From NCBI RefSeq assembly GCF_021729155.1, contig NZ_JAJQYA010000031.1, positions 246 to 60,251 of the forward strand: a stretch of DNA of 60,006 nucleotides, in the 5' to 3' direction. Of the stretch, positions 1,279 through 45,733 are shown in pieces (the stretch's first letter is position 1; each line of letters starts with the position of its first letter). Below the pieces are notes generated by a model. The model was not told the DNA's origin. It ran no database searches and saw only the letters and a program-made list of their open reading frames with translations. The position numbers were made by a program, and so were the translations under genes. The DNA comes from Membranihabitans marinus (GTDB lineage Bacteria; Bacteroidota; Bacteroidia; Chitinophagales; Saprospiraceae).

Positions 1279-1869
1279 ATGAAATTGAAATCTTGTATTT
1301 TAATCCTCGCTTTTTTTTGCCTAGTAAGTAATGCCTATTCACAATACGACGGGTATAAACGAAATCCTGATGGAAGCTATTCCGTTGGCGGATGCTATGA
1401 CAGCTATAAGAAAAACGATGATGGAAGTTATGCCGTAGGAGGGGGGTACAAAAGTTATATTAGAAACGCAGACGGCAGTTATGTATGTGGCGGTGCCTAC
1501 AATGGATACAAACGGAATCCTGACGGCACTTATGCATGTGGCGGTGCCTATAACGGGTATAAACGCAATCCAGATGGGACCTATGTATGCGGTGGCGCTT
1601 ATAATGGTTATAAAATAAATCCAGACGGGAGTTTCGTCCTTGGGGGAAAATATAATGGTTTTAAACGCAATCCAGATGGGACCTATGTATGTGGGGGCGC
1701 TTATACAGGATACAAAAGAAATCCAGATGGCAGTTATGCTGTGGGTGGCCGATATAATGGCTATAAAAGCAATCCCGATGGCAGTTTTGCTGTGGGGGGA
1801 AGCTACAATAGTTATAAGCGTAATGCTGATGGAAGCTATTCCGTGGGCTGGGGTATTTGTAACGAGTAG
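1279..1869 (+). CDS. Secreted protein of ten tandem 17-residue repeats
   Basis: I do not recognise a named family. The 196-residue product begins with a clear signal peptide (residues 1-22, hydrophobic core ILILAFFCLV, cleavage near AYSQ). Residues 23-192 are exactly ten tandem units of 17 residues with consensus YNGYKRNPDGTYVCGGA, and the protein ends ICNE. The open frame extends upstream to a TTG at 1207. I chose the ATG at 1279 because it directly precedes the signal peptide. Cysteine occurs at unit position 14 in units 3, 4, 5 and 7 and at position 17 in unit 1, so disulphide or metal-linked stacking is conceivable. The aromatic and glycine-rich, NPDG-turn pattern suggests a repetitive beta structure on or outside the cell surface, which is inference. 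It stands alone, between repeat-rich DNA and a DUF3024 gene. Confidence 0.85.
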   Translation: MKLKSCILILAFFCLVSNAYSQYDGYKRNPDGSYSVGGCYDSYKKNDDGSYAVGGGYKSYIRNADGSYVCGGAYNGYKRNPDGTYACGGAYNGYKRNPDGTYVCGGAYNGYKINPDGSFVLGGKYNGFKRNPDGTYVCGGAYTGYKRNPDGSYAVGGRYNGYKSNPDGSFAVGGSYNSYKRNADGSYSVGWGICNE

Positions 1870-2011
1870 TGGGTTCTGCCCTCAGATTTTATTTTTATAT
1901 TTTCATGTGGAGTAAATCCTAAAGTATTTTTTATTCGATTATTAATTCTTAGCTTAGATGTTTCAGTATCTATCTAACCATTTGTGAAAGCTGAAGTAAA
2001 AACGGATAATA

Positions 2012-4020: not shown

Positions 4021-4144
4021 TGAATGGAGGCCACTGTGTCGAGGTGAACGAATGAAGTTGCACAAAGGGCAACCCGATGGACTAAATCTAACTGAGTAGG
4101 GTCCGCAGGACCATTGGTAGTCAATCTACCAATGACGAAAGCTC
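4021..4144 (+). repeat. Mosaic of two three-hairpin modules
   Basis: A truncated unit (gtgaacgaatgaagt, a-hairpin GTTGC-acaaag-GGCAAC, half of a b-stem CCGATGGAC) is fused to a complete one. The complete unit has hairpin a GGTCC-gca-GGACC, hairpin b CATTGGTAG-tcaat-CTACCAATG at 4112-4134, and hairpin c CCAAAGC-cactg-GCTTTGG at about 4144-4162. The c hairpin continues into the composite repeat. The same mosaic recurs at 12840-12963. Confidence 0.8.
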
Positions 4145-4680
4145 CAAAGCCACTGGCTTTGGGCAAACCAATCTAATACGAATTACATTTATAATTTATA
4201 AGCTTACCCACCCACGACACGGGGGTCGTGGTGCCCTCGTTGAAGGTAGATTTACTACCTTCAGTACTTCGTACTTTACTCGGTTATCTTTCGATTTATT
4301 TGAAGTTTTACATCGTTTAAAATACTCGCCGTAGCTACGGCTATGCCTGTGTTTTTAGCCTCGTCTAACTCCAAATATTTTCGAAATCTTTTCCGTCATC
4401 ATAAAATGTAAATCGTATAATATAACAAGAGAAAAGTCCTGAAAGCGGCGCACTGAGCTTGGTCGAAGTGGACGTAGTCTAATAGCATAGGGTGAAACCC
4501 TATGAAAAGGATGCCTTCCTAGAAAAAAGTCCTGAAGGGACGAGGGAATTCATTTCTATCGTCAGCAAACAACATTTTTCTATTAAAATCAATGATTGAT
4601 GTGAATTGAATGATAACATGAATGTTGATCCTCATGGATTTGTCACACTTTTTGCCCAATCTATCCTATTATATCATTAC
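4145..4680 (+). repeat. Composite dispersed repeat, copy B (with insertion)
   Basis: This is nearly the same sequence as 13254-13755 over about 500 bp. In order it has gccactggctttgggcaaac, the 241-bp insertion, a GTCCTGAA hairpin, CATAGGGT-gaa-ACCCTATG, a second GTCCTGAAGGGAC hairpin, gaattcatttctatcg and the tail ending in a tttgtcacactttttgcc-like sequence. The first GTCCTGAA hairpin carries extra bases (agcggcgcactgagcttgg, then tcgaagt) that are absent from the copies at 13 and 14 kb. Confidence 0.85.
4177..4417 (+). mobile_element. MITE-like 241-bp insertion, copy 1
   Basis: The element is bounded by TACGAATTACATTT on the left and AAATGTAAATCGTA on the right, a terminal inverted repeat matching at 13 of 14 positions. 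TAA flanks it on both sides (4174-4176 and 4418-4420). Two related copies of the host repeat (near 881 and 14404) have a single TAA and no insertion, which fits insertion with a 3-bp target duplication. Inside are hairpin-module parts (CCACGAC-acgggg-GTCGTGG, TGAAGGTAG-attta-CTACCTTCA, AGTAC-ttc-GTACT). There is also a long imperfect hairpin centred on GCCGTAGCTACGGC. It encodes no protein, so it would need a transposase in trans. Confidence 0.7.
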
Positions 4681-4769: not shown

Positions 4770-4885
4770 CACCCACTCGAGGGAATAATCCCTCGGTTCC
4801 CTCATCAAATGCCTTTAGTAGGCATTTGGCTCTTTGAGCTGCATTCGGTCATGTCTCTACGTTCAGTCGTGACTGCCCCATAAAT
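4770..4885 (-). repeat. Three-hairpin module, reverse orientation
   Basis: On the minus strand this unit has an a-type stem GCTC-aaa-GAGC and hairpin b CAAATGCCT-actaa-AGGCATTTG (4806-4828). The atgaggg-type linker and a c-type stem CGAGGG with a six-base loop follow. The flank reads gtgactgcccc, the usual outer border of these units. It lies between the convergent DUF3089 and OmpA genes. Confidence 0.7.
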
Positions 4886-7893: not shown

Positions 7894-10536
7894 ATGGCAG
7901 AACTAGCTTCAAAATATGATGCTTCCAGTGTAGAAGATAAATGGTATAATGAGTGGATGGAAAAGGATTATTTTTCTTCGGTGCCCGATGAAAGAGAGCC
8001 TTATGCGATAGTAATTCCTCCGCCCAATGTGACAGGTATTTTACATATGGGTCATATGTTGAACAATTCGATTCAGGATATTTTGATTCGAAAAGCGCGA
8101 CTGGATGGGAAAAATGCTTGTTGGGTGCCCGGTACCGATCACGCTTCTATAGCAACTGAGGCCAAGGTCGTTCAATGGTTGCGAGAAAAGGGGATGAAGA
8201 AGGGTGATCTTACACGAGAAGAGTTCTTAACCTATGCATGGGAATGGACGGATAAGTATGGAGGGATAATTCTCCATCAACTGAAAAAACTCGGTGCATC
8301 TTGCGATTGGTCTCGGACCGCATTTACCATGGATGAGTCTAGATCTGAGCAGGTGATTCAAGCCTTTATCGATATGTATAATTCGGGAAAATTGTACCGG
8401 GGGTTGAGAATGGTGAATTGGGATCCAGAAGCCAAGACTGTTTTGTCCAATGAGGAAGTTCTGTATTCAGAGGAAAATTCTAAATTGTATCACCTCAAAT
8501 ATCCAGTGGCCGACAGTGACGACTACGTAGTAATAGCCACTACCAGACCTGAGACTATTTTGGCCGATACCGGTGTGGCGGTTCATCCTGAGGACGATCG
8601 ATATGCGGGATTAAAGGGGCAGTCGGTCGTGGTGCCGATAGTCAATCGAGCAGTCCCCGTTATTTTTGACGATTACGTAGATCGCGAGTTTGGAACCGGA
8701 GCATTGAAAGTCACTCCGGCACACGATGTCAATGACTATGAAATAGGTCAGCGTCACAATTTGGAAGTGATTAATATTTTTGAAGAAGATGCTACCCTAA
8801 ATGCCGACGGTCTGCACTATGCTGGCCAGGATCGATTCGAGGTGAGAAAGGCCATCGTGAAAGAATTGGAAGAAAAGGGATTTTTGATAAAAGTAGAAGA
8901 ATATGTCAACAATGTAGGACGTTCAGAACGGACAAAAGCCGTTGTTGAGCCTCGACTTTCTTTGCAATGGTATGTGAATACGGAAGCATTGGCCGAGCCG
9001 GCATTGAAGGCCGTAATGGATGATGTCATTCGGTTTTTTCCTGAAAACATGAAAAACACTTATCGACATTGGATGGAAAACATCCGCGATTGGTGTATTT
9101 CGAGACAGTTGTGGTGGGGGCATAGAATTCCGGCCTATTATTACCAAGACGAGATAGTAGCGGCTGCCAGTCCAGAAGAAGCTTTGGCTCAAATGCAGGA
9201 GAAATTTCCAGAGACACAACTGACCATCGATGATCTTCGACAGGATGAAGATGTGTTGGATACTTGGTTCTCCAGTTGGTTGTGGCCTTTCTCGGTTTTC
9301 AATGGTATGAGAAGCAATGCCGAGGTGGATTATTATTACCCTACGGCCACCTTGGTGACGGGATGGGATATTATATTTCTTTGGGTCGCTCGAATGGTGA
9401 TGGCAGGTTATGAGTGGAAAGGAGAACGTCCGTTTAAAGAAGTGTATTTCACGGGAATGGTGAGGGATAAACAGCGCCGAAAAATGAGTAAATCATTGGG
9501 TAATTCACCAGATGCCCTTCAATTATTGGCGGATTATGGGGCTGATGGAGTACGATTTGGACTACTGTCATCTTCACCTGCAGGTGGAGATTTGTTGTTT
9601 GACGACAAGCTCTGTGAACAAGGTCGTAACTTCTGTAATAAAATGTGGAATGGTCTTCGATTGATCAAAGGTTGGACGGTAGATGATGCCGGAGTAGATG
9701 ACCGCGATGTATTGATGCGGACAACGGCATTAGATTGGATCAGCAACCAATTTCAGGCTCTCTTGGCCGAATTGGATCAAGAGTTTGAACAATATCGTCT
9801 ATCTGAGGTAGCTAAGAAATTGTACAATTTTATATGGAATGAATTTTTCTCATGGTTTTTGGAGATGGTAAAACCTCCCTATGGTCATCCCATTGATCGT
9901 GCGAGTTATGAAAGAATATTAAATATTTATGAGGAATTGATGATTGCTCTTCATCCATTTATGCCTTTTATTACGGAAGAAATTTATCAAAATTTAAGGG
10001 AGAGATCTAGTGACGATCACGTAATGGTGGCTCAGTGGCCGAAGCAAGGCAATATTGATTCTTCGCTATTTTCATCTTTTGAATTGGTCAAAGATTTGGT
10101 GTCCAATGTCAGGGATTTGAGAAATAAGAATCAGATCAAACAGCGTGACCCCTTGACCATGAAAATGTTGGCAGGTGTGGAAAGTAAGGAATTATTGTCC
10201 AATGCGGGATTGCGTGAATTGTTGCTTAAAATGGCCGTTGTAGAAGAACTGGAAATCGTAGATGCCGCTCCAGAAGTACCTCATGCCAATATTGTCGCAC
10301 AGACGGTAAAAGCTTTTGTGATATTGCCAGCTATGGATGTAGAAGAAGAGCGGGCAAAATTAAAAGCAGAATTGGATTATGCCCTCGGTTTTGTAAAATC
10401 GATCTCGGGAAAACTGAGCAATGCCAAGTTTGTAAATAATGCACCAGCGGCGGTAGTGGACAAAGAGCGCAAAAAATTAAGTGATGGACAAGCGAGGGTG
10501 TCCATGTTGGAAGAGAGTTTGGCTCGGCTTAAGTAA
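7894..10536 (+). CDS. valS: Valine--tRNA ligase
   Basis: This cytoplasmic class Ia aminoacyl-tRNA synthetase charges tRNA-Val. The 880 residues include the HIGH-type motif HMGH (residues 51-54, within PPPNVTG.LH) and a CP1 editing domain (about 185-330, with TTRPETILADT and GTGALKVTPAHD). The KMSKS loop is at residues 530-534. The anticodon-binding helical domain and a C-terminal coiled-coil arm (last about 65 residues, ending K.KLSDGQARV) complete it. The frame opens at a GTG two codons earlier (7888), and I preferred the ATG at 7894. Length is normal for the family. The gene is monocistronic, with a rho-independent terminator just after it. It converges on the GH43-like gene. Confidence 0.97.
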   Translation: MAELASKYDASSVEDKWYNEWMEKDYFSSVPDEREPYAIVIPPPNVTGILHMGHMLNNSIQDILIRKARLDGKNACWVPGTDHASIATEAKVVQWLREKGMKKGDLTREEFLTYAWEWTDKYGGIILHQLKKLGASCDWSRTAFTMDESRSEQVIQAFIDMYNSGKLYRGLRMVNWDPEAKTVLSNEEVLYSEENSKLYHLKYPVADSDDYVVIATTRPETILADTGVAVHPEDDRYAGLKGQSVVVPIVNRAVPVIFDDYVDREFGTGALKVTPAHDVNDYEIGQRHNLEVINIFEEDATLNADGLHYAGQDRFEVRKAIVKELEEKGFLIKVEEYVNNVGRSERTKAVVEPRLSLQWYVNTEALAEPALKAVMDDVIRFFPENMKNTYRHWMENIRDWCISRQLWWGHRIPAYYYQDEIVAAASPEEALAQMQEKFPETQLTIDDLRQDEDVLDTWFSSWLWPFSVFNGMRSNAEVDYYYPTATLVTGWDIIFLWVARMVMAGYEWKGERPFKEVYFTGMVRDKQRRKMSKSLGNSPDALQLLADYGADGVRFGLLSSSPAGGDLLFDDKLCEQGRNFCNKMWNGLRLIKGWTVDDAGVDDRDVLMRTTALDWISNQFQALLAELDQEFEQYRLSEVAKKLYNFIWNEFFSWFLEMVKPPYGHPIDRASYERILNIYEELMIALHPFMPFITEEIYQNLRERSSDDHVMVAQWPKQGNIDSSLFSSFELVKDLVSNVRDLRNKNQIKQRDPLTMKMLAGVESKELLSNAGLRELLLKMAVVEELEIVDAAPEVPHANIVAQTVKAFVILPAMDVEEERAKLKAELDYALGFVKSISGKLSNAKFVNNAPAAVVDKERKKLSDGQARVSMLEESLARLK

Positions 10537-10585: not shown

Positions 10586-11543
10586 AGGGATATTGTTTTA
10601 AGAGTTGAGACAGCAGGGATTTGGGAATCGTGAGGGCTGTTCCGTGACGCAGGCCTTTGGGGAAAGATATTTGATCAGAGATGTCTGTCCAAGTTTGCCA
10701 ATCCGAGGTTTTCATTGCACCCATTCTATGTCTGGTATATTCATCGTAATAGACGATATATTCCTTTCCTATTTTTAATACTGTTGGTCCTTCTATCCAT
10801 GAAGGGGAAAAACTGGGCAAGGCAGGGCCATACCCTTTATTCATTCTTTTGCTGGAAGTTATACGAAGATTTTTTTTGGCCTCGGGATATTTGGTTTCAT
10901 CTTTCACGATCATTTTATAGCCCTTGTCGACGGGGACGATAACGCCGTCAATTACATTGAACCCATCATCGTATAGCAACTTCGTAGGGCTAAAAGTCTC
11001 GAAATCATCGGTTAGAGTATAATACATGCGATGATTGTAATTTTTGTCCCCACTGTTATCGGTTTTGGGGAATTTGCCGGGAATAGTCGTCGACCAATAT
11101 ATCATATATCGCTTCTTGTTGTCATCGTAAATGATTTCTGGCGCCCAGCAATTGAGGGCTGAATCTTCGTCATCCATCACCGGGATAAATTTTTGATCGG
11201 ACCAATGAATGAGGTCTTTGGTGGAGGCATAGCCAATGCCTTTTTCACCCCAACTCACCGTCCACACCATGTGATAGCTGCCGTCCGGACCTTGAATCAT
11301 ACATGGATCGCGCATCAGTTTGTCTTCGCCTACCACGGGTTGCAATATTGATTGATCCTGATTGAGGCTTATCCATTCTATTCCATTGTCACTATAGGCT
11401 ATATGTAATCCGTCTTCTCCATTGTTTTTAAAATAGGTGAAAAGATATGCCGAATCCGATTGACTGTATAGGGGGAGGATAAATCCGATTAAAAGGAGGG
11501 TGATTGTTTTTCTGGAATCGAAATTAATTTGTTTCCGTTTCAT
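10584..11543 (-). CDS. GH43-like glycoside hydrolase (five-bladed propeller), exported
   Basis: The 319-residue protein has a signal peptide (residues about 12-28, TITLLLIGFILPLYSQ). It has the glycosidase beta-propeller pattern of the GH43/GH32/DUF377 group. MRDPCMI carries a probable catalytic Asp79, NCWAPEIIYD a probable acidic Glu136, and IEGPTVLKIGKEYIVYYDEY the later glutamate. Substrates in GH43 are arabinosides, xylosides or galactosides, and this one cannot be assigned. It probably acts in the periplasm. The ATG at 11543 precedes a basic stretch and the hydrophobic core. It is divergent from the AI-2E-type permease and no Sus-type transporter adjoins it. Confidence 0.75.
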   Translation of the reverse strand: MKRKQINFDSRKTITLLLIGFILPLYSQSDSAYLFTYFKNNGEDGLHIAYSDNGIEWISLNQDQSILQPVVGEDKLMRDPCMIQGPDGSYHMVWTVSWGEKGIGYASTKDLIHWSDQKFIPVMDDEDSALNCWAPEIIYDDNKKRYMIYWSTTIPGKFPKTDNSGDKNYNHRMYYTLTDDFETFSPTKLLYDDGFNVIDGVIVPVDKGYKMIVKDETKYPEAKKNLRITSSKRMNKGYGPALPSFSPSWIEGPTVLKIGKEYIVYYDEYTRHRMGAMKTSDWQTWTDISDQISFPKGLRHGTALTIPKSLLSQLLKQYP

Positions 11544-11634
11544 AGGATTAATGGAATTAAATGATTTTAATTATATCTTAGATAAAGATATAATTTTATG
11601 TTTTTATCGTTTAATTTCTGTTATTTTTAACCAC

Positions 11635-12741
11635 ATGAAGCAATCCACCGCGGCCAAATTAGTTTCTGTTACCATAATTATTGGTGCAATGTATTTATTG
11701 CAGGGCGTTTTGGTGCCATTGCTTTTTGCCAGTTTAATATCTGTTATTCTATGTCCACTTACGGTGTTTTTGGAAAAGAAAAAAGTGCCCAGTATACTGG
11801 CTGCTGCTCTTACGGTATTGATCGCTTTTATAGTGATTAGTGGAATAGTTTGGTTTATTGTAAATCAAGTTATTATTATTGGCAGTATTGATTATCAATT
11901 TCAAGAAAAGTATACAGAGATTATCTCGGCTTTGGAAAATTTCTTTATGACAAGGTTCAATCTTCAGCCCACCGACGTATGGGAGTGGATTAAGGAACAA
12001 TCTCAAGATCTTATCAATTCTGTGACGGGATATGTATCGGTGTTATTTAGTTCTGCGGGCAATACAGTGGCCAACTTTGTATTAATGCCATTGTATATAT
12101 TTTTTATGTTGTACTATCGCGATTTTTTTGTTGCCTTTTTTTACCGAGCTTTTCCCAATACTCCTGAGGATAAGGTGTCCAATACCTTGAATCGAATCTA
12201 TTATGTGATCCAAAGTTATATTCTAGGGTTGGTCACGGTAATGGGTATAGTGGCCGTGCTGAATACCATCGGATTATGGGTTATGAATATTCAGTACGCA
12301 TGGTTTTTCGGGGTGTTGGCTGCCCTGTTGTTATTGATTCCCTATATTGGGATAGCCATAGGGTCGATTTTACCGGCTGTGTTTGCCTTGGTGACTATGG
12401 ACAGTGGATGGTACGCCGTCGGTGTTTTGGTTTGGTTTCAAGTGGTTCAATTTTTTGAAGGTAATTTTATTACCCCCAATATAGTAGGAGGAAAAGTCAG
12501 CGTCAATCCCATGTTTGCCATTATTTCTTTGTTGTTGGGCAGTATGCTTTTTGGTTTGCCAGGTCTAATTTTGGCCATGCCCATGATGGCAGTATTGAAG
12601 GTTGCCATGGATGCCAGTCCAGAATGGAGTGCTTTTGGTTTTGTGATAGGAGAGCCAGAAAAACAGTATCTTCATAAAAAGTCCAAGAACAGGAGAAAAA
12701 GAAAATGGCGGATCCCCAGTCAATATAGAAATCGAAAGTAA
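11635..12741 (+). CDS. AI-2E transporter family (PF01594) membrane protein
   Basis: The 368-residue protein has about eight hydrophobic segments. Two paired N-terminal helices (about 8-65) precede an extracytoplasmic stretch (about 75-140), and four or five helices follow. The conserved PF01594 region includes FFGVLAALLLLIPYIG..IG.ILP and EGNFITPNIVGGKVSVNPMFAIISLLLG. The family includes autoinducer-2 exporters and Na+/H+ antiporters, so the substrate is open. The basic C-terminal tail (KKSKNRRKRKWR) is cytoplasmic. The frame opens earlier at 11500, overlapping the divergent gene. I chose the ATG at 11635, which begins MKQSTAAKLVS and gives normal family length. A repeat cluster starts right after the stop. 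Confidence 0.85.
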   Translation: MKQSTAAKLVSVTIIIGAMYLLQGVLVPLLFASLISVILCPLTVFLEKKKVPSILAAALTVLIAFIVISGIVWFIVNQVIIIGSIDYQFQEKYTEIISALENFFMTRFNLQPTDVWEWIKEQSQDLINSVTGYVSVLFSSAGNTVANFVLMPLYIFFMLYYRDFFVAFFYRAFPNTPEDKVSNTLNRIYYVIQSYILGLVTVMGIVAVLNTIGLWVMNIQYAWFFGVLAALLLLIPYIGIAIGSILPAVFALVTMDSGWYAVGVLVWFQVVQFFEGNFITPNIVGGKVSVNPMFAIISLLLGSMLFGLPGLILAMPMMAVLKVAMDASPEWSAFGFVIGEPEKQYLHKKSKNRRKRKWRIPSQYRNRK

Positions 12742-12763: not shown

Positions 12764-13010
12764 TGAAACTGCATTCGGTCATGTCTCTACGTCGAGGCGT
12801 GATTGCCCCGTAATTCGTTAGGTATTTTGCCACTGTGCCGAGGTGAACGAATGAAGTTGCACAAAGGGCAACTCGATGGACTAAATCTAACTGAGTAGGG
12901 TCCACAGGACCATTGGTAGTCAATCTACCAATGACGAAGGCACCAAAGTCACTGGCTTTGGGTGGGTAAGCCAGATTAGAGAAGTCATGCCCACTGCGGC
13001 ATGACTAGTA
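12764..13010 (+). repeat. Mosaic of three-hairpin modules
   Basis: Visible in order are a module border (gtgattgccccgtaattcg), a truncated unit with GTTGC-acaaag-GGCAAC, and hairpin a GGTCC-aca-GGACC. Hairpin b CATTGGTAG-tcaat-CTACCAATG (12911-12933) and hairpin c CCAAAG-tcactg-GCTTTGG follow, with the gtgggtaagcc tail. A separate c-type hairpin comes last: AGTCATGCC-cactgc-GGCATGACT, nine perfect base pairs. The first part repeats the arrangement at 4021-4162. Confidence 0.8.
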
Positions 13011-13253: not shown

Positions 13254-13790
13254 TTCGATAGGTTTTTAGCCACTGGCTTTGGGCAAACCAATCTAATACG
13301 AATTACATTTATAATTGATAAGCTCACCCACCCACGACACGGGGGGCGTGGTGCCCTCGTTGAAGGTAGATTTACTACCTTCAGTACTTCGTACTTTACT
13401 CGGTTATCTTTCGATTTATTTGAAGTTTTACATCGTTTAAAATACTCGCCGTAGCTACGGCTATGCCTGTGTTTTTAGCCTCGTCTAACTCCAAATATTT
13501 TCGAAATCTTTTCCGTCATCATAAAATGTAAATCGTATAATATAACAAGAGAAAAGTCCTGAAGGGACGTAGTCTAATAGCATAGGGTGAAACCCTATGA
13601 AAAGGATGCCTTCCTAGAAAAAAGTCCTGAAGGGACGAGGGAATTCATTTCTATCGTCAGCAAACAACATTTTTCTATCAAATTCAATGATTGATGTGAA
13701 TTGTATGATACCATGAATGGTGATGGTCATGGATTTGACACACTTTTTGCCCAGTATCTCTTATGTCCCCCGGCCGAGACATGAGTATGT
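13254..13790 (+). repeat. Composite dispersed repeat, copy C (with insertion)
   Basis: This copy is nearly identical to 4145-4680. Unlike copy B it has the short form of the first GTCCTGAAGGGAC hairpin. Its right part (13541 onward) continues unbroken into a duplicate of the 3' end of the downstream ABC exporter gene. Its counterpart is at 14407 onward, with a constant offset of 866 bp. Confidence 0.85.
13297..13537 (+). mobile_element. MITE-like 241-bp insertion, copy 2
   Basis: It has the same length, terminal inverted repeats and TAA flanks (13294-13296, 13538-13540) as the copy at 4177-4417, with only a few base differences. The neighbouring direct repeat at 14404-14406 has one TAA and no insertion. 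Both filled copies sit at the same point of the same host repeat. One insertion followed by copying of the composite is therefore more likely than two independent insertions. Confidence 0.7.
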
Positions 13791-13894
13791 TTTCTAGATA
13801 AAAATATTCTTCAGACATGCAAAATCTAGATTGTAAGACTTACAAATCGTCAGTATACATTTATCACAATATTTTCATTTCGTCCTAGGTCGTA

Positions 13895-14054
13895 TTATTG
13901 GTAGCCCTTGGCTTGCAATCCGTAGAGTTCAGCGTACTTCCCATCTATATCAATGAGTTCATCATGAGATCCTTCTTCGATGAGTTGACCGTGCTCCAAA
14001 AACAGGATGCGATCAGCCATTCTCACCGTTGAAAATCTATGGGATATAATCACG
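13895..14054 (-). pseudogene. Duplicated 3' fragment of the ABC exporter gene
   Basis: The last 160 bp match the 3' end of the exporter gene at 14761-14920 with no difference I can see. They encode its terminal 52 residues, from VIISHRFSTVRMADR to GLQAKGYQ, including the switch histidine. Upstream of the fragment the sequence breaks at the bases tcacg into hairpin modules, so there is no ATP-binding site or membrane domain. An open frame of 77 codons exists only by read-through into repeat DNA. It is a non-functional duplication remnant. Confidence 0.9.
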
Positions 14055-14378
14055 CCTCGGCACAGTGGCCTCCTACCCACCCGAGCCCAGTGGTCTCGGT
14101 TCCTTCGCCAAATGTCCCTTAAGGACATTTGGTTGCTCTAAGGAGCAACTTTGCTCAGTCATCTTCGTCAAAGGTCGATTTACGACCTTTGGTTGCCATT
14201 CTGGCAACTTTACTCAATTACGCCGTAGCTACGGCTATGCTGGAACCCCTCCCGAAACGCGGAGGTTTCGGCTCCTTTATCAAATACCCATTAAGGGCAT
14301 TTGGTAGTCTTTCAGACTACTTCATTCAATCGTGTATCTACGTCGAGGCGTGACCGCCCCGTAATTCGTTAGGGTTTA
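14055..14378 (-). repeat. Array of three-hairpin modules between the duplicated gene ends
   Basis: On the minus strand several units follow each other with different stems. The b-hairpins are CAAATGTCC/GGACATTTG at 14109-14131, CAAAGGTCG/CGACCTTTG at 14169-14191 and CAAATaCCC/GGGCATTTG at 14281-14303, each with a 5-nt loop. The a-hairpins include GTTGCTC/GAGCAAC, GTTGCCA/TGGCAAC and GTAGTCT/AGACTAC. A c-hairpin CCGAAAC-gcggag-GTTTCGG lies near 14249-14268. A perfect palindrome GCCGTAGCTACGGC lies near 14222. Frames through it are not genes. Confidence 0.85.
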
Positions 14379-14650
14379 GCCACTGGCTTTGGGTAAACCA
14401 ATCTAATATAACAAGAAAAAAGTCCTGAAGGGACGTAGTCTAATAGCATAGGGTGAAACCCTATGAAAAGGATGCCTTCCTAGAAAAAAGTCCTGAAGGG
14501 ACGAGGGAATTCATTTCTATCGTCAGCAAACAACATTTTTCCATCAAATTCAATGATTGATGTGAATTGAATGATACCATGAATGGTGATGGTCATGGAT
14601 TTGTCACACTTTTTGCTCAGTATCTCTTATGTTCTCCGGCCGAGACATGA
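14379..14650 (+). repeat. Composite dispersed repeat, copy D (empty MITE site)
   Basis: It matches copy C without the 241-bp insertion (junction ccaatctaatataacaag at 14399-14415). It continues to the 3' end of the intact ABC exporter. Non-coding bases differ from copy C at several positions, although the adjoining coding fragment appears identical. Confidence 0.85.
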
Positions 14651-14760: not shown

Positions 14761-16611
14761 TTATTGGTAGCCCTTGGCTTGCAATCCGTAGAGTTCAGCG
14801 TACTTCCCATCTATATCAATGAGTTCATCATGAGATCCTTCTTCGATGAGTTGACCGTGCTCCAAAAACAGGATGCGATCAGCCATTCTCACCGTTGAAA
14901 ATCTATGGGATATAATCACGGCACTCTTGTTGACCATTAATTCAGTGAAGCGCTCGAAAACTTCGTGTTCTGCTCTGGCATCTAGGGCAGAGGTTGGTTC
15001 GTCGAGTATAAAGAGTTGGGCATCTCTTACATAAGCCCTTGCTAAGGCTATTTTTTGCCATTGTCCTCCTGATAATTCGACTCCATCGTTAAATCGTCGT
15101 CCCAGCATTTGATCAATCCCATTGGGCAATTCACTGACAACTTCTGAAGCCAAACTTTTTTCTGCTGCATAATCTATAATGTCATTTAGCTGATGACCAT
15201 TTTTTTGATTTTTGCTAATGATATCAATATTGCCTATGGCTATATTTTCTTTTGCCGTAAAGTCCAGTCGAATATAATCTTGAAAAATGATACCAATATT
15301 TTTGCGCAAGTCATCCAATTGGATGCGGTCTAGTGGAATGTTGTCCACATATATTTTCCCTTCGCTGGGATCATATAATCGTGATAGCAGCTTGATTAAA
15401 GTGGTTTTTCCAGCGCCATTTTCTCCAACTAGCGCTATTTTTTCATTTGCTCCAATGGTGAAACTGATGTTTTTTATGGCGTAAATATTGCTTCCTGGAT
15501 ATTTAAATCCGACATTTTCAAATCGAAATCCCTCTTTGATGGGATTGGGAAAAGGCAGCATTTCAGCACTTTGTTTTATGGTGGGTTGAATTTCAAAAAA
15601 GTCAAATAAATCGGTTAAATATAGGGAGTGTGAAGATATCTGTGAGAATCTCAACATGATACCCTGTAGTCCAGATTGCATTCGCTTAAAAGTTCCAGAT
15701 AAAAATGTCAGTGTTCCCAAGGTGATTAGACCTTGAATGGTTTGTAAAATGATGACTACATAGGCCCCATAATAGGCCAAACTACCCAATGCGGAAAGCA
15801 ATCCGGCCCAAGTGGATTTTTTAATGATGAGTTTGCGATTGGCCAAATAGTATTCGTGAGCTAGGGTCTTAAATCTCTGAGCGAGAAAACGAGCTAGGTT
15901 AAAGATTTTCACTTCCTTGGCCGCCGTATTTGATGCCCCTAAAAAACGCAGATAATCGAGTTCTCTTCTTTCTTGTGTCCACGATCGAGTCAGTGAATAG
16001 GACTGCATATTGAAGTGCATTTCACCGATAAATGTGGGGATTACCGCAATGATGAGGAGAATAATAAGCCAGGGACTAAATACAATAAGTCCCAATGCCA
16101 GAGACAACAATGATATCAATTCCTGCAGCTGAGTGAGGACCAAAGACAATAGTACCGTCCTACTATTGGTTTGTTGCCGTGCGCGTTCCATTTTGTCATA
16201 AAAGTCAGCATTCTCGAATTGGTATAGATCGAGAGTGGCTGCGTGATGGATTATTTTTTCCGAGGTATGGTTGCTAAACAAATCTCCGAGCAATCCATCG
16301 ATTAGTTGGATCAATTGTCTTAGGAAAATTTGGACGATGACCAGTCCGGCTTCTAAACCCAACATATACCATAGGTAGGTCTTGGACATTTGGTTGTCCT
16401 CCATTAAGGCAATAACCGTGTCTATTATTTCTTTGCCCACATATAGTATGGCCAGAGGTAGGAGGGCTGCCACCAATCTGAGACCAATATTCCAAAGCGT
16501 CATAGTCGGTTGGGTCTCCCATATCAAACGAAGAAATCGCGGCAGATTGCCCATGGCTTGCCATTGCTCCTTTAGCGATAATTTTGGTGGTTGTTTTTTT
16601 CGTGGAGGCAT
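14761..16611 (-). CDS. ABC exporter, fused permease and ATPase
   Basis: The 616-residue half-transporter has an N-terminal membrane domain (about residues 20-345, six helices, ABC type 1 fold) and a C-terminal nucleotide-binding domain (about 365-600). Walker A is GENGAGKTT at 396-404. The signature LSGGQ is at 513-517, followed by Walker B LFILDEPTSALD and the switch histidine in ISHRFST. It should act as a homodimer or heterodimer in the inner membrane to export a lipid, peptide or drug. The substrate is not identifiable. The basic, proline-rich N-terminus (PPRKKQPPK) is cytoplasmic. It has no operon partner. Its last 160 bp and downstream flank are duplicated just beyond it. Confidence 0.92.
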   Translation of the reverse strand: MPPRKKQPPKLSLKEQWQAMGNLPRFLRLIWETQPTMTLWNIGLRLVAALLPLAILYVGKEIIDTVIALMEDNQMSKTYLWYMLGLEAGLVIVQIFLRQLIQLIDGLLGDLFSNHTSEKIIHHAATLDLYQFENADFYDKMERARQQTNSRTVLLSLVLTQLQELISLLSLALGLIVFSPWLIILLIIAVIPTFIGEMHFNMQSYSLTRSWTQERRELDYLRFLGASNTAAKEVKIFNLARFLAQRFKTLAHEYYLANRKLIIKKSTWAGLLSALGSLAYYGAYVVIILQTIQGLITLGTLTFLSGTFKRMQSGLQGIMLRFSQISSHSLYLTDLFDFFEIQPTIKQSAEMLPFPNPIKEGFRFENVGFKYPGSNIYAIKNISFTIGANEKIALVGENGAGKTTLIKLLSRLYDPSEGKIYVDNIPLDRIQLDDLRKNIGIIFQDYIRLDFTAKENIAIGNIDIISKNQKNGHQLNDIIDYAAEKSLASEVVSELPNGIDQMLGRRFNDGVELSGGQWQKIALARAYVRDAQLFILDEPTSALDARAEHEVFERFTELMVNKSAVIISHRFSTVRMADRILFLEHGQLIEEGSHDELIDIDGKYAELYGLQAKGYQ

Positions 16612-42549: not shown

Positions 42550-42860
42550 TATGTAGAGACGCAATGCCTTGCGTCTCCTAACACCACCTATTTGAGACGC
42601 AAACCCACCCGGAGCACAGTGGCTCCGGTTCCTTCTGGCTTACCCACCCGAAACACGGAGGTTTTCGGCTAAATATCCTCGGCACAGTGGCTAAATACCT
42701 ATCGAATTACATTGCAGTCACGCCTCGGCACAGTGGCCTCGGTTCCTTCATCCAATTGATATTTAATCAATTGGGTTGCACTTCGTGCAACTGCATTCAG
42801 TCATGTTCGGTCATCATTCTGGCAACTTTACTCAGTTATTCAAAGTTAATCTTTGAACCT
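42550..42860 (-). repeat. Module cluster between convergent genes
   Basis: The cluster includes the hairpin GAGACGCAA-tgcc-TTGCGTCTC (about 42555-42576), c-hairpin CCGGAGC-cactgt-GCTCCGG (minus), and CCGAAAAC-ctccgt-GTTTCGG. The border cgaattacattgcagtcacgcc comes next. A full unit follows with hairpin b CCAATTGAT/ATCAATTGG (42752-42774) and hairpin a GTTGCAC/GTGCAAC, nearly identical to 546-650. A GTTGCCA-like remnant follows. It fills the gap between the aminotransferase and the DUF4180 gene. Confidence 0.8.
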
Positions 42861-45290: not shown

Positions 45291-45522
45291 TACGGTGCAG
45301 TCACGCCTCGGCATGGTAGATGACACTATCGAATTATGTTGCAGTCACGCCTCGACGTAGAGACGCAATGCCTTGCGTCTCCTATCACCACCTATTTGAG
45401 ACACGAGGCTCACCCACCCGGAGCACAGTGGCTAAAAACCTATCGAATTACGTTGCAGTCACGCCTCGACGTAGAGACGCAATGCCTTGCGTCTTCCAAC
45501 ATAGATTTTAATTAATGCCAAG
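45291..45522 (-). repeat. Module borders and two GAGACGCAA hairpins
   Basis: The sequence gttgcagtcacgcctcgacg plus tagagacgcaatgccttgc occurs twice (about 45340-45382 and 45453-45495), each with the 9-bp hairpin GAGACGCAA-tgcc-TTGCGTC(T). Between them lie cacccacccggagcacagtg and the border cctatcgaattacgttgcag. These are mosaic pieces of the same families as at 42.6 kb. Confidence 0.75.
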
Positions 45523-45730
45523 CCAGAGCACAGTGGCTCCGGCTCCCTCGACTTGGCTCACCCACCCGGAGCACAGTGGCTCCGGCTCCCTCGACTTGGC
45601 CAACCCACCCGGAGCACAGTGGCTCCGGTTCCCTCGACTTGGCTCACCCACCCGGAGCACAGTGGCTCCGGCTCCCTCATCCGATGGACATTAAGTCCAT
45701 CGGGTTGCTCTATTGAGCAACTTCATTCGG
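45523..45730 (-). repeat. 43-bp tandem array of c-hairpins ending in a full module
   Basis: Four consecutive copies of a unit reading tcacccacccggagcacag, tggctccggctccctcgac, ttggc are present. They are one partial copy, then 45558-45600, 45601-45643 and 45644 onward, and each holds hairpin CCGGAGC-cactgt-GCTCCGG on the minus strand. The last copy joins hairpin b CCGATGGAC-attaa-GTCCATCGG (45681-45703) and hairpin a GTTGCTC-tatt-GAGCAAC (45704-45721). It lies directly at the 3' end of the DUF1343 gene. Confidence 0.88.
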
Positions 45731-45733
45731 TCG

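Follow-up and report, generated by a model that had tools for sequence, protein, structure and literature searches.

Mobile repeats of very small size that lack a transposase have already been proposed, and to our knowledge no mover and no moving form (RNA or single-stranded DNA) has been identified for them. The kinds that appear closest to the repeat described here are the small dispersed repeats (SDRs) of cyanobacteria, repetitive extragenic palindromes (REPs) with their mosaics (bacterial interspersed mosaic elements, BIMEs), and mitochondrial double-hairpin elements. The SDRs of Nostoc, reportedly described by Elhai et al. in 2008, are said to be small dispersed hairpins of 21-27 nt with a shared fold and compensatory changes, which nest in their own copies, occur in one lineage only and have no known transposase. 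The double-hairpin elements of chytrid mitochondria, reportedly described by Paquin et al. in 2000, are said to keep loops and stem lengths constant while the stems change, and mobility was reportedly inferred for them. Here we describe a repeat unit of 82-90 nt at positions 14055-14378 of a 60,006-nt stretch of the Membranihabitans marinus genome (G000; contig C24, 246-60251, in an assembly of 5.40 Mb), called the window below.

The unit resembles SDRs, as they are described, in its common fold, compensatory changes, nesting in its own copies, restriction to one lineage and lack of a known transposase. It differs from them in its length, its three-way junction with an extra hairpin, its tandem G-A pairs, the phylum in which it occurs and, in relatives, its tRNA-gene hosts. 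Mitochondrial double-hairpin elements have two hairpins and belong to fungal mitochondria, whereas the unit has three hairpins and an additional helix (P1) and belongs to a bacterial genome. The likeness to REPs and BIMEs (PMC3733652, PMC6006769) lies in high-copy extragenic palindromes, mosaics, a bias to convergent genes and, probably in the case of the unit, recognition as folded single strands. In comparison with them, the unit is longer, has three hairpins, lacks a GTAG/CGTC foot and replaces host bases, and no consistent Y1 transposase gene is found among its carriers. By eye in the alignments, a GT[AG]G/CGTC foot is not conserved beside the hairpins, and units start with TGACYGA. BOX elements of Streptococcus pneumoniae are likewise modular, with a variable number of modules, and are predicted to fold when transcribed; they are reported to have terminal inverted repeats and target-site duplication (PMC3049150). 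Neither was seen for the unit: its ends (TGACYGA...GTGGGT) are not inverted repeats, unlike those of miniature inverted-repeat transposable elements (MITEs), and the filtered junctions in which no target-site duplication was seen were preselected for a loss of 3-20 bases.

Fold of the repeat unit

Read 5' to 3', the unit consists of TGACYGARYRWA, hairpin a, hairpin b, the linker RYGARGGAR, hairpin c and GTGGGT. Hairpin a typically has 7 bp and a loop of 3-4 nt, and is shorter in many copies. Hairpin b abuts it and typically has 9 bp and a 5-nt loop (mostly TAAAT or TTAAT), and hairpin c typically has 7 bp and a 6-nt loop (CACTGT or CTCCGT). The first-pass annotation of this DNA, made from the letters alone, had proposed the three-hairpin layout at 14055-14378, and three units are indeed present there on the minus strand. 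They are a full unit at 14245-14332 with P1, P2 (hairpin a), P3 (hairpin b), P4 (hairpin c) and tail (covariance model, 91.4 bits), a unit without hairpin c at 14162-14220 in which the 3' strand of P1 directly joins the next unit (matched by the models), and a full unit at 14074-14161 with an imperfect hairpin c (CCGAGAC/GGCTCGG; 89.4 bits).

The linkers had been described as constant. They are present in fixed order, but they vary jointly and pair with each other. RNAalifold, applied to 67 distinct units, placed four further pairs (P1) between the two linkers, and in 150 aligned units the linkers covary (T2-A63 or C2-G63, C5-G60 or A5-U60, Y6-R59, R9-Y56, Y10-R55). P1 also contains tandem G-A pairs, with G3A4 opposite G61A62 and G7A8 opposite G57A58; tandem GA/GA is found in 116 of the 150 rows at the outer position and in 127 at the inner one, and the pattern recurs inside some c hairpins (CCGAGGC/GCCGAGG). 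Since the linkers vary together and pair, P1 meets the two hairpins a and b in a three-way junction that leaves no base unpaired from a to b, and hairpin c begins beside P1. This fold is more elaborate than the one first proposed. A hammerhead-like core, prompted by CTGANGA-like letters, was rejected, as a and b abut without a GAA strand.

Pairing in P2-P4 was examined in the same 67 units, which remained from 84 parsed rows after removal of duplicates and misparsed rows. Stem cells were paired in 96.9% of cases (76.2% with shuffled partners), 17 of 21 pairs showed double changes, and the covariation score was 0.565, against 0.179 after shuffling and at most 0.124 with the partner slid. For P1, 89.7% of cells were paired (75.2% shuffled) and 148 cells carried double changes (56 shuffled), values that none of 500 shuffles reached; its covariation score was 0.531, against 0.290 shuffled and at most 0.096 when slid. 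Two further measures were not distinctive for P1, namely the pairs with double changes (5 of 5 observed, matched by 328 of 500 shuffles) and the pair types (observed value matched by 26 of 500). These shuffle and slide controls are weaker than R-scape, the copies being related. The covariation of P2-P4 supports the original suggestion that the shape persists while stems change, implying selection or copying at the level of structure. A scan for tandem a+b (hairpins of 7 bp and 9 bp with nothing between them) found 114 matches in 1.29 Mb, a sample partly chosen around BLAST matches. A single first-order Markov resampling of that sequence contained 4, and the linker motif was also present in 102 of the 114. 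The reversed sequence also gave 114 matches and is uninformative as a control, because palindromes survive reversal.

On the unit's own strand, G-U exceeds A-C in P2-P4 by 68 to 25 in this genome and by 34 to 10 in other genomes (pooled 102 vs 35, p = 9e-9, the copies not being independent). The folding energy of the complementary strand is about equal, so the choice of strand depends on this excess. Single-sequence folding recovered most hairpins, and P1 in one of eight RNA folds and none of four DNA folds, as expected from its non-canonical pairs.

Copies, insertion junctions and hosts

Model R2 found 50 units in two contigs (698 kb), from which about 390 copies are extrapolated for this genome. 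Regions mostly picked near known matches held 130 units (549 kb) and 185 units (730 kb); of the 185, the alignment and later counts used 150. BLAST with the window stretch matched this genome at least 75 times, with 40 of the 270 candidates scored, and the genome contains at least 150 units, every one of the 150 scored among 3191 candidates being a match. Within the family Saprospiraceae, model R1 identified at least 34 carriers among 199 genomes, including this one and two congeners. In that scan 22 candidates or fewer were scored per genome under stricter filters, and copy numbers are floors with misses possible. The copy number is uneven among relatives, from at least 150 here to a single recorded match in several genomes. 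Carriers numbered 7 of 198 genomes in a sample of the order and 2 of 295 in a sample of the class (own genome included in each), all from the same family, and we judge the repeat to be restricted to Saprospiraceae among the sampled genomes. By eye, the stems differ in other genomes, and the TAAAT loops, the TGACYGA and GARGGAACC linkers and the GTGGGT tail are mostly kept; 94 distinct hairpin-b arms occur over 22 genomes, three of them common to this genome and others. No model in Rfam 15 matches the unit and no description of this repeat was found in the open-access literature searched, in agreement with the initial remark that no named family has this layout. Carriage by phages or plasmids was rejected: blastn of 14055-14378 found no match, and 16 viral contigs with the motif pattern were judged chance, as model R2 (E up to 1) found none of the units in them.

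The pair, junction and context analyses used 1.98 Mb of sequence, partly picked near known matches, and the units are not statistically independent. The 281 full units yielded 164 pairs with an identity of at least 97%. Both flanks are unlike in 47 of these pairs (best ungapped identity below 55% over 60 nt), 34 are alike on one side, 9 on both and 74 intermediate, the pairs overlapping in clusters. A paralogous place looked empty for 116 of 322 units with flanks, and 41 empty/filled comparisons within identity limits yielded 38 distinct junctions. Host bases (5-47) were lost in 33 of them; by hand count, the insertion starts at unit position -1/0 in 26 and ends at -1 to +6 in 27. In 22 filtered junctions (start -2 to +1, end -2 to +12, loss 3-20 nt), 5-19 host bases were replaced, with a median of 8. 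Most hosts of these 22 are sibling units oriented like the unit inside them (13 of the 13 recognised by motif). Five of the nine other hosts are also sibling units by eye, and the last four are, by eye, an Acido-Lenti-1-like hairpin, a ~150-bp inverted-repeat element (twice) and the palindrome AGCCGCAATGCATTGCGGCT.

Copies that are nested or lack hairpin c are common, and nesting is visible in the window itself at 12844-13004 on the plus strand. The 5' part of a host unit (12844-12887) is broken after the hairpin b loop, in the same layout as a junction at C10:49733, and is followed by a nested unit (12888-12968; 65.9 bits) that is 98% identical to the C10:49733 unit, with both flanks unlike. 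The rest of the host, the 3' strand of P1 plus hairpin c, was recognised by eye at 12974-13004. Similarly, the 5' part of a host unit at 4045-4088 (plus strand; model match and by eye) is split by a unit nested at 4089-4169 (plus strand; model match). The unit appears to behave as a discrete mobile element with mostly common ends.

Of 128 arrays, 22 overlap an open reading frame of at least 100 aa (mechanically called, some perhaps spurious). Arrays are enriched between convergent genes (44 of 111, vs 99 of 527 background gaps; p = 8e-6) and depleted between divergent ones (10 of 111 vs 113 of 527; p = 0.002); this extragenic location, between convergent or co-directional genes, is REP-like. 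Between co-directional genes the unit is in sense in 22 cases and antisense in 26. The extragenic convergent bias and the balance of orientations fit tolerated extragenic elements better than a cis-acting mRNA element.

In other genomes, units also occur beside tRNA genes. Rfam models placed tRNA genes next to units in 4 of 16 loci, and ARAGORN, run over 39 loci from 21 genomes, found a tRNA no more than ~105 nt from units in 7 of the genomes. In five genomes (G099, G105, G166, G188 and G192), a unit is directly bordered by incomplete copies of the adjacent tRNA. Their longest matches are 26-37 nt, and just 11-12 nt in G192; some matches in G192 and G099 are only 11-16 nt. In G188, positions 6 and 15 of a Val tRNA copy flank one unit, and a second unit follows position 25. 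Both flanks are tRNA 3' end pieces in opposite sense in G166 and G192, and comparable pieces were seen by eye in G151 and G100. In M. marinus, where 14 tRNAs were sampled, only 2 of 131 arrays have one of them within 300 nt. tRNA genes thus serve as hosts in some relatives but are not the main host in this genome.

Possible modes of spread

The unit is probably a non-autonomous mobile repeat whose folded single strand is recognised and copied as a whole. The reading joins the observations established here: covarying structure, G-U excess on one strand, copy number, unrelated flanks, common ends and nesting. The strand of ~82-90 nt has the junction of P2 and P3 on P1, with the two tandem G-A pairs, followed by P4 and the GTGGGT tail. 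Copies would insert into intergenic DNA, often within other hairpin repeats, replacing few host bases, and in several relatives they lie inside partial tRNA gene copies. If only copies that still fold are copied again, the stems would drift by paired changes, and loops, tandem G-A pairs and stem lengths would persist. The mover may be a host-supplied activity, either replication and repair or an unrecognised enzyme. A bolder form of this proposal is offered tentatively, and we regard it as doubtful: a bacterial mobile element that is a folded strand only, without its own transposase or reverse transcriptase, would target hairpins and tRNA-gene arms, with the three-way junction and its tandem G-A pairs as the unit of selection.

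Several points weigh against copying of a folded strand. No moving enzyme was found, and in P1 the ratio of G-U to A-C is just 82 to 64. Twelve of the 38 junctions start elsewhere than -1/0, and five overlap by 10-28 bases (tandem repeats) rather than losing host bases; we judge both groups to be mostly tandem-repeat artefacts. The preference for host hairpins is modest: one arm was lost in 12 of the 22 filtered junctions against 7.0 expected (375 of 20,000 simulations reach this), which is only suggestive of a target preference, and empty sites are detectable in repeated hosts only, so that any such preference is biased by design. Unit flanks are not complementary beyond chance, either here (3.73 vs 3.73 nt, 267 units) or in other genomes (3.74 vs 3.83 nt by chance, 57 units), and a retained outer stem under every unit was rejected on this ground. 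No tRNA fragment abuts a unit in the sample of this genome with its 14 tRNAs. A replication-strand preference was rejected as weak and uneven (44 same vs 67 opposite, p = 0.036; 28 plus, 53 minus and 8 tied in positive-skew regions, and 14 plus, 16 minus and 2 tied in negative-skew regions). Finally, in the congener G001, two units lie inside an element of ~410 nt that has inverted ends (CCCGC...GCGGG) and short repeats at its borders (L227:8590-9040 and 11215-11640, L229 ~10086-10312; three two-ended copies and one diverged copy aligned), so some unit copies there spread as passengers of this element. This carrier may be of DDE type.

It is unlikely that slippage, template switching and recombination between hairpins multiplied the unit with no dedicated mobility, arm-to-arm correction producing the paired changes. 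Template switching would be expected to give nested units the orientation of their host, as in all 13 sibling hosts; one hairpin arm is often lost, and segmental duplications are present, such as 13890-14050 and 14766-14900. These processes account poorly for near-identical units in unrelated flanks, for insertion starts clustered at -1/0, for loops and linkers that are alike (by eye) across genera with different stems, and for the asymmetry of G-U over A-C.

We consider it improbable that the units are REP-like elements moved on single-stranded DNA by a Y1 transposase (HUH; REP-associated tyrosine transposase, RAYT, or TnpA-REP), giving BIME-like mosaics. High copy number, extragenic location and convergent bias are those reported for REPs (PMC3733652), and the CYGA of the unit resembles the CnGA foot of class 3 TnpAY1 repeats (PMC6006769). 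However, the unit lacks a GTAG foot, and Y1_Tnp (PF01797) matched in 24 of the 34 carrier genomes and in none of the other 10, which include the unit-rich G015 (at least 19 units) and G067 (at least 17), a search that may miss divergent Y1 proteins and in which some of these assemblies are incomplete. Of the three Y1 genes in M. marinus, the one on contig C5 has units ~0.65 and 1.0 kb upstream, but the hairpins nearest to it score as sub-threshold Acido-Lenti-1 and not as this unit. A Y1 transposase was rejected as the mover on the 10 carriers with no PF01797 match. A reverse transcriptase was also rejected, with no RVT_1 match in this genome; RVT_1 matched in 9 of the 16 carriers tested (of 34), and G015 matched neither Y1_Tnp nor RVT_1.

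A function of the units as RNA elements (in regulation or processing, perhaps in that of tRNA), duplicated and kept by selection on transcripts, is also improbable: strong covariation, tandem G-A pairs, the one-strand excess of G-U and the tRNA proximity in relatives would suit such a role, but antisense copies are as frequent as sense copies between co-directional genes, copy number varies widely between relatives, nested and c-less copies are frequent, and the partial tRNA copies stand beside tRNA genes.

The family provides copies by the hundred, shared ends, numerous empty/filled pairs and genome-specific variants, and it opens the spread of a folded strand to direct testing. The fold with its non-canonical pairs is itself testable, and the tie to tRNA genes is unexpected. 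The repeat is easily missed in Saprospiraceae genomes, and its description should be useful to Rfam and to annotators.

Other copies and neighbouring repeats

The remaining example sites of the first-pass annotation were also matched by the models. On the plus strand, a unit truncated 5' by the window edge lies at 1-81 (its first 77 nt are identical to 169-245), a full unit at 166-249 and a weaker one at 250-328 (model R1 only, 40.2 bits; not among the R2 matches). On the minus strand, full units lie at 552-639 (the empty-site counterpart of a filled copy at C31:17969), 4770-4851 (with a short hairpin a), 42716-42803 and 45645-45733 (101.2 bits). The list of sites was real and incomplete, having overlooked the full units at 4205-4286 and 13325-13406 (minus strand), which match the models. 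Additional hairpin c copies stand alone near 42600 and, by sequence inspection, in tandem at approximately 45535-45660 (minus strand), with only linker and tail besides. In other carriers, repeated unit arrays have a period near 78 nt (G099, L224:9624-9995) or near 135 nt (G100, L237:562-1057).

The segmental duplication mentioned above involves the 3' end of an ATP-binding cassette (ABC) transporter gene, the two copies being ~870 bp apart, and the detached copy stops where the unit array starts. Among named genomes, the nearest relatives of an ABC transporter encoded in the window come mostly from Saprospiraceae (identity of 60-63% for the top entries), with some from Dyadobacter. A ~150-bp imperfect inverted-repeat element (TACGAATTACATTTATAAT...GCCGTAGCTACGGC...) is found in the window at 4170-4430 and 13290-13550 and in loci L172, L173 and L174; it is dispersed through the genome and hosts units. 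In L174, a second copy of the 3' part of a Y1 gene (gene 1453-1983, minus strand) lies beyond the gene's 3' end within 961-1620 and, by eye, is split by this element. Hairpins of the GTAGAGACGCAATGCCTTGCGTCTC type (42555-42600 and 45350-45500) resemble GTAG-tagged REPs and host units. Acido-Lenti-1 (RF01687) matches occur in the window at 822-866, 13555-13599 and 14421-14465 and at L173:1167-1209 and 1391-1436, and sub-threshold matches lie just upstream of the Y1 transposase gene at C5:22577. This Rfam 'small RNA' may be a REP-like repeat of a Y1 transposase.
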